Below are positions 3,081 through 6,034 of a DNA stretch of 10,367 nucleotides, piece by piece. A model generated the notes under the pieces. The model was given only the letters and a program-made list of their open reading frames with translations. It was not told where the DNA came from and ran no database searches. The stretch is from Thermococci archaeon. GTDB taxonomy: Archaea > Hadarchaeota > B88-G9. The stretch's first letter is position 1; each line of letters opens with the position of its first letter. The position numbers and the translations under genes are program-made. The stretch is taken from assembly GCA_003660555.1 (NCBI GenBank), contig QMUK01000041.1, forward strand, positions 1 through 10,367, read 5' to 3'.

Positions 3081-4088
3081 GTGCAACCGATAATTGATTT
3101 AATAAAGAAGTGTCCTGAGTGTGGGTCTGAGAATTTGAGTTACATAGAGAAAACGGGAGAGTTGGTTTGTAACGATTGTGGCCTGGTAATAGAGGAAAAC
3201 ATAATAGATTCTAGGCCAGAGTGGAGAAGTTTTGAAGACGATAAGGAGAAGGACAGATCCAGGGTGGGTCCTCCAGTTTCTCTCAGAATACATGACAAGG
3301 GGTTACACACGACGTTTTCCCTGAGGGATTTGAGTAAGTTAGACCAGTCGATATCACCAAAGAGGAGAGGAGAAATAATAAAAATGCACAGACTTCAGAG
3401 AATGATGAGAGTGTCTGGAAGTGGTGAGAGAAACTTAGTCTATGCTCTCTCCGAGCTGGATAGAATAGCTTCTGCTTTGTCTTTGCCCACTAATGTTAGA
3501 GAGGAGGCAGCTAGACTATATAGGATGGTTGTGGAGCAAAAAGCTGGAAGAGGAAGGAGAATAGAAGAAATAGTGGCTGCTTGTGTATACGCTACCTGTA
3601 GAAAGATGAAAATATCTAGGACATTGGATGAAATAGCAGCAGTAACCAACTTGAAGACCAGAGACATAGGAAAAACATATAGGCTAATAGCTAAGAAAAT
3701 GGGAATGAAAATGAGCCCTTCAAATCCGTCAGAGTACATACTCAGATTTTCAAGCGACTTAAAGCTCTCTGAGGAGGCAACTACCTTGGCAATGGAAATA
3801 GCTAAGGAAGCTGAGAAAAAGCAAATAGCCATGTCTAGGAAACCACAGGGAGTAGCTGCAGCTGCCATATACTTAGCATCGGAGATAAAGGGAGAAGCCA
3901 AAACACAGAGTGAAATAGCAAGAGTAGCTAGGGTCACCGAGGTAACGATAAGACACGTACTCAAGGAACTGGTCGATAAGCTCGATATGGTCAAAGAATA
4001 TATGAAAAGAGAAGAGGAAAGGAAAATGAGAGCAAAAAGAATAGAGGAGAGCAAGGAGATAGAGGCAATCGTTAAGTCAACTCCTTGA
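3081..4088 (+). CDS. tfb: transcription initiation factor IIB (TFB)
   Basis: TFB recruits RNA polymerase to TBP-bound promoters and sets transcription direction through BRE contacts. Seen in order in the 335 residues: an N-terminal zinc ribbon with Cys11, Cys14, Cys30 and Cys33 (CPECG...CNDCG), the B-reader/linker around IDSRPEWRSFEDD, and two cyclin folds. The first fold includes AARLYRMVV and AACVYATCRK; the second includes GVAAAAIYLAS and the recognition-helix region EVTIRHVLKEL. The tail is Lys/Glu-rich. The GTG start at 3081 is supported by GGAGG at 3069-3073 with a 7-nt spacer and by the family N terminus. The 3' end overlaps the convergent rio2 gene by 17 bp; a run of seven T at 4296-4302 inside rio2 could end transcription. 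The symbol is generic because archaea often have several TFBs. Confidence 0.97.
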   Translation: MQPIIDLIKKCPECGSENLSYIEKTGELVCNDCGLVIEENIIDSRPEWRSFEDDKEKDRSRVGPPVSLRIHDKGLHTTFSLRDLSKLDQSISPKRRGEIIKMHRLQRMMRVSGSGERNLVYALSELDRIASALSLPTNVREEAARLYRMVVEQKAGRGRRIEEIVAACVYATCRKMKISRTLDEIAAVTNLKTRDIGKTYRLIAKKMGMKMSPSNPSEYILRFSSDLKLSEEATTLAMEIAKEAEKKQIAMSRKPQGVAAAAIYLASEIKGEAKTQSEIARVARVTEVTIRHVLKELVDKLDMVKEYMKREEERKMRAKRIEESKEIEAIVKSTP

Positions 4089-4959
4089 TTAGTTCTCCTG
4101 CAGCTTGAACGTCTATGCGATATTTGTTACTAAAATGGGCAGAGATCCTAGAGATGTCTCTCCGGATCAGTTCCTCTGACCCTGAATACTCGGGATGGAC
4201 ACTCTGTGGAAAATCTATGTAGTAGAATTCATCGTCCTCTGAGACGAGCACGTTGAATTCATTGAAGTCTCCGTGAACCACCCCATTCTCAACCATTTTT
4301 TTGTAATCATCGAGTATGGTGTGGAAGGCCTCCTCTGCATCTTCTACCACGACTTTGTTAAGTTGGGGTGCTGGCACCTTGTCTCTGGTTATCATTTCCA
4401 TGGCAACAGCATGTCTATTCAATCCTAATGGCTTAGGAACGTTGACTTTACTCCTTAGAACCTCTAAAGAGTGCATCTCTATTTGAGCTTTAGCCCTAGG
4501 TACATCTATCTCGAATTCATCTATTTTTAGCTCACTTCCACGTATTCTAATTGCCATGTAGGCTAGAGACTTCTCTATTTTCTTAAATTCTTGGGAATAA
4601 TACCTGTGAAGCTTAACAGCAACAGCTTTTCTCCCTCGTTTTGAAATCAGTATAGTAGCCTCTTTTCCACAGGCCACTATGTCTCCAATTTCACCTATTG
4701 CGCCGTGGTTTCTGAGGTCCCATAGGGCGAGGGTATCCAATCCTCTCTCCGTGAGCCTAGAACAAACTTCTCCGAACGATGGGACGTTCCTCAGGACTAT
4801 TAGATTCATCCTAGCCAAATCTGAAATTCTCTTGTTTATTTCTCTTCCTTTAAATGGCAGCTTCTCGTGTAATTTGCTCAGAGGAATCCACTCGTATCTC
4901 TCTCTAAGCCCGTCCATAGCTCTCATTATGGCTATGTCCCTCTTGTCCACTATCCTCAT
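4072..4959 (-). CDS. rio2: RIO2-family serine/threonine kinase/ATPase
   Basis: RIO2 is an atypical kinase/ATPase that acts in late maturation of the small ribosomal subunit. The 295 residues show the RIO2 layout. An N-terminal winged helix spans about 1-85 (RDIAIMRAMDGLRERYEWIP...). A nucleotide loop region IVACGKEATILIS lies at 94-106 with the ATP-binding Lys116 (VAVKLHR). The catalytic loop VVHGDFNEFNVL at 227-238 contains Asp231. The metal-binding Asp249 lies in YYIDFPQSVHPEY, the RIO2 signature. The ATG at 4959 has AGGTGG four bases upstream (4964-4969), and the N terminus aligns with the family. A TATA-like word lies only about 15 nt upstream of the ATG, too close for a normal start, so the promoter is unclear. 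The gene is divergent from moxR and convergent with the TFB gene. Confidence 0.95.
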   Translation of the reverse strand: MRIVDKRDIAIMRAMDGLRERYEWIPLSKLHEKLPFKGREINKRISDLARMNLIVLRNVPSFGEVCSRLTERGLDTLALWDLRNHGAIGEIGDIVACGKEATILISKRGRKAVAVKLHRYYSQEFKKIEKSLAYMAIRIRGSELKIDEFEIDVPRAKAQIEMHSLEVLRSKVNVPKPLGLNRHAVAMEMITRDKVPAPQLNKVVVEDAEEAFHTILDDYKKMVENGVVHGDFNEFNVLVSEDDEFYYIDFPQSVHPEYSGSEELIRRDISRISAHFSNKYRIDVQAAGELIKELT

Positions 4960-4970
4960 CGGACCACCTT

Positions 4971-4977
4971 TTTATAT
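4971..4977 (+). promoter_or_regulatory. TATA box for the putative C/D box sRNA
   Basis: TTTATAT at 4971-4977 predicts transcription starting about 26 nt downstream, near 4998-5001. This is at the 5' stem of the sRNA candidate. Read on the other strand (ATATAAA) it would place initiation inside rio2, so the plus-strand reading fits better. No good BRE is visible on either side. Confidence 0.4.
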
Positions 4978-4995
4978 GATCGTGAGAGTAGGATC

Positions 4996-5056
4996 GTTGC
5001 CGATGATGATGAATTCAATAGGTCCTGGTGCCTTTTAGGAGGTGAACTGAGGCAAC
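4996..5056 (+). ncRNA. candidate C/D box sRNA (2'-O-methylation guide)
   Basis: The segment has the frame of an archaeal C/D box sRNA. GTTGCC (4996-5001) and GGCAAC (5051-5056) form a perfect 6-bp terminal stem. Box C ATGATGA occurs in two overlapping registers (5003-5009 and 5006-5012). Box D CTGA (5047-5050) touches the 3' stem directly. The total length of about 60 nt is typical. The internal boxes are weak: CTGG at 5025-5028 could be D', and a GTG-only C' follows with no loop. With those boxes both guide spacers are 12 nt (5013-5024 and 5035-5046). The second contains AGGAGGTGA (5037-5045), complementary to the UCACCUCCU end of archaeal 16S rRNA. By the fifth-base rule the C at the fourth position of that target would be methylated. 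As an SD it has no usable start codon: its GTG is followed at once by a stop, and no other start occurs before 5085. One unpaired G (5002) separates stem and box C, which is a weakness. Confidence 0.5.
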
Positions 5057-5078
5057 TTATAATCTAGAATTCCCCTAG

Positions 5079-5113: not shown

Positions 5114-6034
5114 TTGCAAAAAGAACAGAAGGGCACAGGCTTGGAAGAGATTGTTAGAGAGATACAGCAAAACTTCGGAATAGTAGGTAGAGATGAAGAG
5201 ATAAAAAAAGCGATAGCAGCCAAAATGGCCGGAAAACACCTATTGATAGAGGGAGAAGTTGGAACAGGGAAGACCACACTCGCTGTAGCTATATCTAAGT
5301 ACTTCAACCAACCCTTATTTAGGATAGACGGGGACGAGAGAATGACCGAAGCCAAACTCGTGGGACACTTCGATCCTCCCATGGTGGTGAGGAAGGGATA
5401 CACTTGGGAAGCCTTCGTCCCAGGCCCCTTGGTCAGAGCCATGAAGGAAGGAGGAATACTATTCATAAACGAGCTGAATAGGCTCCCAGAGGGTACTCAG
5501 AACGTCTTACTTCCAGCTATGGATGAGGGAAAGATATACATACCGAAACTCGGAGAGATAAACGCCAAGGATGGATTCACAGTTATAGCTACAGAGAATC
5601 CCAGCGAACACGTTGGAACAACACCTCTCAGCGAGGCCATTAGGGACAGATTCGTTCTGATAAGTTTGGAATATCAGTCAGAGGATGAGGAGATCGAAAT
5701 AGTCACACTGAGAAGTGGATGCTCTAGGGAAATAGCTGAGAAGTCCGTCAAAATAACTAGACTCACTAGGGAACATCCTGACATAAAGAGGGGATCCTCT
5801 GTGAGGGGAGCAATAGACATAGCGTCCTTAGTTGAAAAAATCGGAAATGGGCTAGAGTTGAGTTCATGGATAGATGCTTCTTTAATGGCTCTATCTACCA
5901 AAATAGAGTTGAATGACGGGACGAACAGATCAATAAGGGAGATAATCGAGGAAATAGTCCTCAAGGCAATCAAGGATTTTCCTGGAGGGAGAGAGGAGCT
6001 AGGCCTCTCGATGATTCAGAGGAAGTCAATGTAA
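5114..6034 (+). CDS. moxR: MoxR-family AAA+ ATPase
   Basis: MoxR ATPases are cytosolic AAA+ chaperones that work with VWA-domain partners to activate or assemble other proteins or complexes; the client here is unknown. In the 306 residues: Walker A GEVGTGKT at 47-54, the MoxR-typical DGDERMTEAKLVGHFDPP segment at 72-89, Walker B ILFINELNR at 115-123, sensor 1 ATENP at 159-163, the arginine-finger region AIRDRF at 175-180, and a helical lid after it. The start is TTG 5114: an in-frame stop lies at 5093-5095 and the only other early start is TTG 5141. No SD is seen, in keeping with a leaderless mRNA. The VWA gene begins 41 bp downstream. Confidence 0.93.
   Translation: MQKEQKGTGLEEIVREIQQNFGIVGRDEEIKKAIAAKMAGKHLLIEGEVGTGKTTLAVAISKYFNQPLFRIDGDERMTEAKLVGHFDPPMVVRKGYTWEAFVPGPLVRAMKEGGILFINELNRLPEGTQNVLLPAMDEGKIYIPKLGEINAKDGFTVIATENPSEHVGTTPLSEAIRDRFVLISLEYQSEDEEIEIVTLRSGCSREIAEKSVKITRLTREHPDIKRGSSVRGAIDIASLVEKIGNGLELSSWIDASLMALSTKIELNDGTNRSIREIIEEIVLKAIKDFPGGREELGLSMIQRKSM

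Follow-up and report, generated by a model that had tools for sequence, protein, structure and literature searches.

Does the short gap between the divergent genes rio2 and moxR encode a C/D box sRNA, and would such an RNA be guided to the anti-Shine-Dalgarno (anti-SD) tail, the stretch of 16S rRNA by which start sites on mRNAs are chosen? The question is raised by 61 nucleotides on the plus strand of the window (here the whole stretch of DNA analysed, 10,367 nucleotides), at positions 4996-5056, for which the initial annotation had proposed a C/D box sRNA with a guide against the 3' end of 16S rRNA. The candidate element lies entirely in the rio2-moxR gap and has the layout GTTGCC-G-ATGATGA-37 nt-CTGA-GGCAAC as read from the sequence (Table 1).

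Direct reading upheld the annotated order and spacing of a 6-bp terminal stem, box C, and box D, the stem consisting of six Watson-Crick pairs with no GU and touching box D directly. The TATA box annotated about 25 nt upstream was likewise found, the first base of the TATA-like TTTATATG preceding the first base of the stem by 25 nt. In a normal kink-turn (K-turn), the stem is followed by three unpaired nucleotides (G-A-U) and then by tandem G.A pairs. The unpaired G beside box C, counted initially as a weak point, is thus expected and no weakness at all, as it forms the 3-nt bulge together with the first two bases of box C; a matching G is also present in all six orthologues of family f73 described below. 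A second box C register (ATGATGA at 5006-5012) overlaps the one at 5003-5009 and yields no stem. The spacing of 37 nt from box C to box D compares with 36-42 nt in the canonical anti-SD guide sRNAs of other archaea. The terminal stem is the second-longest of the C/D set of its genome, and the folding energy of the element RNA is unremarkable (z -0.26). The other weakness conceded at the outset, poor C'/D' boxes, is real and was in fact understated: a box search of the expected region (5022-5034) returned no acceptable C'/D' pair, the best being CTGG with a non-matching C'. C'/D' is described as essential for the function of archaeal guides (PMC8413462).

Table 1. Positions of the element, its neighbours, and related sRNA loci (window coordinates, unless a locus is named)
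Feature	Position	Strand	Basis
Neighbouring RIO2-type kinase gene (rio2), Rio2_N and RIO1 domains	4072-4959	-	Domain match; ATG at 4959
TATA-like TTTATATG	4971-4978	+	Consensus-like; putative promoter
Terminal stem, 5' strand GTTGCC	4996-5001	+	Direct reading
Unpaired G, nucleotide 1 of the 3-nt kink-turn bulge (G-A-U)	5002	+	Direct reading
Box C ATGATGA, exact RUGAUGA	5003-5009	+	Direct reading
Putative D' guide TGAATTCAATAG	5010-5021	+	Pairing to 16S h31
Expected D'/C' region GTCCTGGTGCCTT, without acceptable boxes	5022-5034	+	Box search
D guide TTAGGAGGTGAA, 12 nt	5035-5046	+	Pairing to own 16S 3' end
Box D CTGA	5047-5050	+	Direct reading
Terminal stem, 3' strand GGCAAC	5051-5056	+	Direct reading
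Neighbouring MoxR-type AAA ATPase gene (moxR)	5141-6034	+	Likely start TTG 5141
Canonical C/D sRNA candidate, same genome	L056, about 2752	-	Clear C'/D'
Canonical C/D sRNA candidate, same genome	L134, about 1619	-	Clear C'/D'
Canonical C/D sRNA candidate, same genome	L081, about 10419	+	Clear C'/D'
Canonical C/D sRNA candidate, same genome	L071, about 14875	+	Clear C'/D'
Canonical C/D sRNA candidate, same genome	L050, about 16543	-	Clear C'/D'
Canonical C/D sRNA candidate, same genome	L094, about 5714	-	Clear C'/D'
Canonical C/D sRNA candidate, same genome	L072, about 1133	+	Clear C'/D'
Anti-SD guide sRNAs, family f73	L148, L168, L169, L170, L172, L174		

The organism's own 16S rRNA (G000:C2:44942-46416) has the 3' end ATCACCTCCTAAT, also given as CGATCACCTCCTAATGG. 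Against the tail AUCACCUCCUAA, the D guide forms 11 of 12 possible pairs, contiguous and all Watson-Crick, with the sole mismatch adjoining box D. The annotated complementarity to the anti-SD end was therefore both confirmed and extended, the pairing amounting to 11 contiguous bases instead of nine because the organism's own 16S end was used for the comparison. By the N+5 rule, the predicted target is C1535 (E. coli numbering, here and below assigned by eye from conserved flanks), which faces guide base 5 as counted from box D. Only 1.9% of random genomic 12-mers match rRNA as well as this guide. The guide spans the whole anti-SD and pairs with two bases beyond the 16S end as modelled by Rfam, which would fit a precursor, although that end is set by the model and the mature end may differ. 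The putative D' guide can form 10 contiguous pairs (one of them GU) with 16S rRNA at about E. coli 959-968 (h31, P site); since 15% of random 12-mers do equally well, this match is not significant and was rejected as evidence.

The host genome encodes fibrillarin, L7Ae, and Nop5 (the last matching PF01798 with an E value of 2e-69), along with about seven canonical C/D sRNA candidates with guides of 10-13 nt and clear C'/D' boxes, against 0.25 obtained per simulated genome at the same score. For several guides of these seven candidates, the best rRNA matches comprise 8-11 contiguous pairs, mostly in 23S rRNA. The element thus shares with archaeal C/D box sRNAs the box C, the box D, the terminal K-turn, a D guide of 12 nt, the length from C to D, and an encoded L7Ae/Nop5/fibrillarin set; it differs from them in its target, the anti-SD tail, and in having no recognisable C'/D', a feature which the other seven sRNAs of the genome all possess and which counts against it.

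That missing feature is an argument for the strongest rival, namely that the element resembles a C/D sRNA gene by chance or is a decayed one without present function (a recent relic being among the options). SD-like strings are common, and a loose search pattern gives chance-like matches in roughly 2-5% of genomes. This explanation is nonetheless judged unlikely, as the stem, boxes, guide, and TATA-like sequence coincide within 86 bp of intergenic DNA, and simulated genomes never reach the combination of stem and boxes seen here. In these tests, 1.07 of the 1.30 Mb of the genome was read as stretches and the simulations were order-2 Markov sequences of 1.07 Mb each. With a Watson-Crick stem of at least 5 bp, exact boxes, and a gap of 30-45 nt, the element was the single observed case against none in 25 simulated genomes; with GU pairs allowed, a gap of 28-50 nt, and a stem of at least 6 bp, two were counted where the simulations gave about 0.4 per genome, the second being the canonical C/D sRNA on contig C6 (L056). 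The C'/D' criterion alone would place the element among the chance matches, whose stems, however, are 0-1 bp: of the matches without C'/D' that were examined, the element with its 6 bp is the sole exception. Rfam returned no family at gathering score on the window, with several C/D families aligning to the element over the full model below threshold. As none of 15 comparison loci reached the gathering score either, canonical anti-SD guides among them, this test is insensitive.

Relatives of the element itself are few. The 61 nt recur identically in contig NJEE01000093.1 of 'Candidatus Bathyarchaeota archaeon ex4484_205', the only near sequence; as this contig belongs to the same species (about 99.6% identity), the identity is uninformative on conservation or selection. 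No match to the element was found in 27 other genomes of the phylum, all of them distant and from outside its family.

For a wider comparison, 394 genomes of the domain were searched with a pattern combining box C, box D, and an anti-SD guide, each match then being read and the loci compared by box anatomy rather than by covariance model. Matches were obtained in 15 of the 394 genomes. Canonical C/D sRNAs with anti-SD guides, having both internal boxes, guides mostly of 12-14 nt, and terminal stems of 0-5 bp, are present in no fewer than five further archaeal families, including four genera of family f22 and six genomes from two genera of family f73. The guide core GGAGGTGA, situated beside box D or D', is common to the window element, f22, f73, and the genomes G201, G311, and G148. 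The predicted target is C1535 in f73, G311, and one sRNA of G201 (G201b), as it is in the window, and C1533 in f22, G148, and the other sRNA of G201 (G201a). These RNAs differ from the window element in their good C'/D' boxes and shorter stems, and G311 and G148 further in carrying the anti-SD guide at D' instead of D. The single genome G201 holds two anti-SD C/D sRNAs (loci L150 and L159), offset such that C1533 and C1535 would be their targets.

The D' guides of the two families point by the N+5 rule to the decoding site, at C1402 in f73 and at A1408 in f22. C1402 is a known archaeal (and eukaryotic) Cm (PMC7005279), and A1408 has been predicted as a site in S. acidocaldarius and N. equitans (PMC4644070); in this the RNAs look like true guides. 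The guide AAAGGAGGTGAT (AAAGG...) of G045 can pair over 12 contiguous positions with the tail of its own 16S, ...ATCACCTCCTTT (CCUUU), and the window guide (TTAGG...) pairs with its own tail CCUAA; that each guide fits the 16S tail of its own genome is suggestive, the comparison covering two genomes only. In G163, the guide-16S pairing comprises only nine contiguous pairs. The terminal stem of f22 varies with compensation (GCC/GGC versus ACC/GGT), and the end of a neighbouring gene is common to at least three of its four genera. In one f73 genus, at least two genomes have a pilin-like gene downstream of the sRNA, whereas in the other genus the sRNA stands beside a different gene; the RNA therefore outlives its neighbourhood.

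In f22, G201b, G311, and G148, the guide core is not an SD sequence, because either the next downstream gene runs on the opposite strand, or the RNA comes after the end of a gene and no start lies at SD distance; an SD role is excluded by distance or convergent gene order in G163 and f22. In the f73 genus g231, the canonical sRNA abuts an ORF with an ambiguous start, and its D guide might also serve that ORF as an SD. A second f73 set (L171, L173, and L176) was dropped: its 'C'' ATGATGA is likely the start of an ORF resembling an ASCH-domain protein (judged by eye), of which the motif may be the SD. The conserved GGAGGTGA-CTGA-ATGATGA near that ORF start mimics a C/D sRNA and is a trap for pattern searches. 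Six loci outside canonical spacing (L145, L146, L149, L178, L182, and L183) were set down to chance, with K-turn stems of 0-1 bp and no C'/D', and L151-L153, L177, and L179-L181, several of which look like coding DNA, were not counted as C/D sRNAs. A reversed-pattern control gave one match, but this control ignores codon bias, and C'/D' and the stem were relied on instead.

Strengthened by the 11-nt match to the organism's own 16S rRNA, the complete protein set, and the independent, conserved anti-SD guides elsewhere, the proposal of a C/D sRNA aimed at the 16S 3' end is still the best reading of the locus, its weak part being the missing C'/D'. The element is probably a genuine C/D RNA gene that is presumably transcribed, and it is reasonably likely to be aimed at the 16S tail. 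Whether the RNA actually methylates C1535 appears evenly balanced, and the overall explanation favoured here, a C/D sRNA gene with its own promoter that guides methylation of the anti-SD, is held with the same middling confidence. On this explanation, the gene at 4996-5056 would be transcribed from its own promoter, and L7Ae would bind the terminal kink-turn and recruit Nop5 and fibrillarin. The D guide would then pair with the tail of 16S or pre-16S rRNA over the whole anti-SD, whereupon fibrillarin would 2'-O-methylate C1535, which faces guide base 5 and lies inside the anti-SD. The particle, while bound, would keep the tail from pairing with mRNA, and masking of the tail during maturation may be all that the RNA does, should catalysis be impossible without C'/D'. 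Methylation by the window copy is uncertain, shielding being indistinguishable from it by sequence.

Shielding in its pure form is the next rival: an L7Ae-binding kink-turn RNA that base-pairs to the anti-SD tail of pre-16S rRNA and guides no methylation, but shields the tail for a time or assists folding as a chaperone, U3-like in logic. It is rather improbable. The strong terminal K-turn, whose stem exceeds those of all canonical anti-SD guides found, and the want of a C'/D' site fit such an RNA, and the reach of the guide past the Rfam-modelled end makes pairing with a precursor possible; however, in both length (12 nt) and position the guide is normal for methylation, and the canonical sRNAs of the same aim keep C'/D', which suggests that methylation is their use.

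The element might alternatively belong to the 5' leader of moxR, as a kink-turn to which L7Ae binds to regulate translation, with the SD serving an undetected start. L7Ae-bound leader k-turns are known in archaea (PMC5539422, PMC6298567), and moxR does lie downstream on the same strand. The start of moxR, however, is about 97 nt downstream with its own SD-like AGAAGGG (5127-5133), a TATA-like TTATAAT (5057-5063) stands between it and the element, and the k-turn overlaps neither the SD nor the start of moxR, with no start codon at SD distance, all of which makes this account very improbable. The ORF list opens moxR at TTG 5114; TTG 5141, 7 nt after AGAAGGG, looks the better start.

That the perfect AGGAGGTGA at 5036-5044 (one of 33 occurrences in 1.07 Mb of the genome) is an ordinary SD, marking the start region of a small gene that was overlooked, is barely credible, as it is followed by no ATG, GTG, or TTG at SD distance and no ORF of at least 20 aa begins there even with CTG or ATT starts, in agreement with the original description of a perfect SD lacking a start codon to serve.

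The proximity to a small-subunit maturation kinase, initially thought to add interest, was not borne out. Homologues of rio2 and moxR are absent from all 17 comparison loci, and the RIO2 neighbourhood looks incidental. Among the genomes compared, the best identity of the rio2 product outside its own species is 48%, other phylum members giving RIO-domain matches only, at about 25-33%.

Among known systems, eukaryotic U13 and yeast snR45 are likewise C/D RNAs whose pairing site in small-subunit rRNA is close to the 3' end (PMC5464676), but the modification they guide is cytidine acetylation in the helix 45 region instead of ribose methylation in an anti-SD, a sequence that 18S rRNA does not possess. 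In Nanoarchaeum equitans sR15 and sR17, both guides of one sRNA are directed at 16S rRNA, with a possible role in folding (PMC4644070); their targets are strands of helices 28 and 30, whereas the second-guide match of the window element is not significant. C/D sRNAs are a known kind, and the anti-SD as a guide target is the new part within the literature searched. The target goes unmentioned in a survey and a review of archaeal C/D RNAs, from which the word 'Shine' is absent (PMC4644070, PMC7994747), and targeted literature searches found no published anti-SD guide; they did not extend to the 2015 per-species target files of Dennis et al., so an earlier prediction may exist there. The modification list from the P. 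abyssi 30S cryo-EM structure has no modification in the 16S tail (PMC7005279).

Ribose methylation within the anti-SD could alter how it pairs and how stable it is, and a bound guide would hold immature subunits off mRNA. The question posed is whether the archaeal anti-SD is ribose-methylated, with an effect on initiation, and it is directly testable because the guides are conserved across genera in two archaeal families. A broader and distinctly speculative extension, which we consider improbable, is that several archaeal lineages maintain C/D sRNAs methylating or masking the anti-SD (at C1533 or C1535), often together with a decoding-site guide, for the control of maturation or initiation, the window RNA being a masking-only form stripped of C'/D'. 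In G148, the anti-SD guide sRNA (L147, about 1495-1600) is directly followed by more C/D-like units with repeated TGATGA and CTGA, suggesting a tandem C/D sRNA array.
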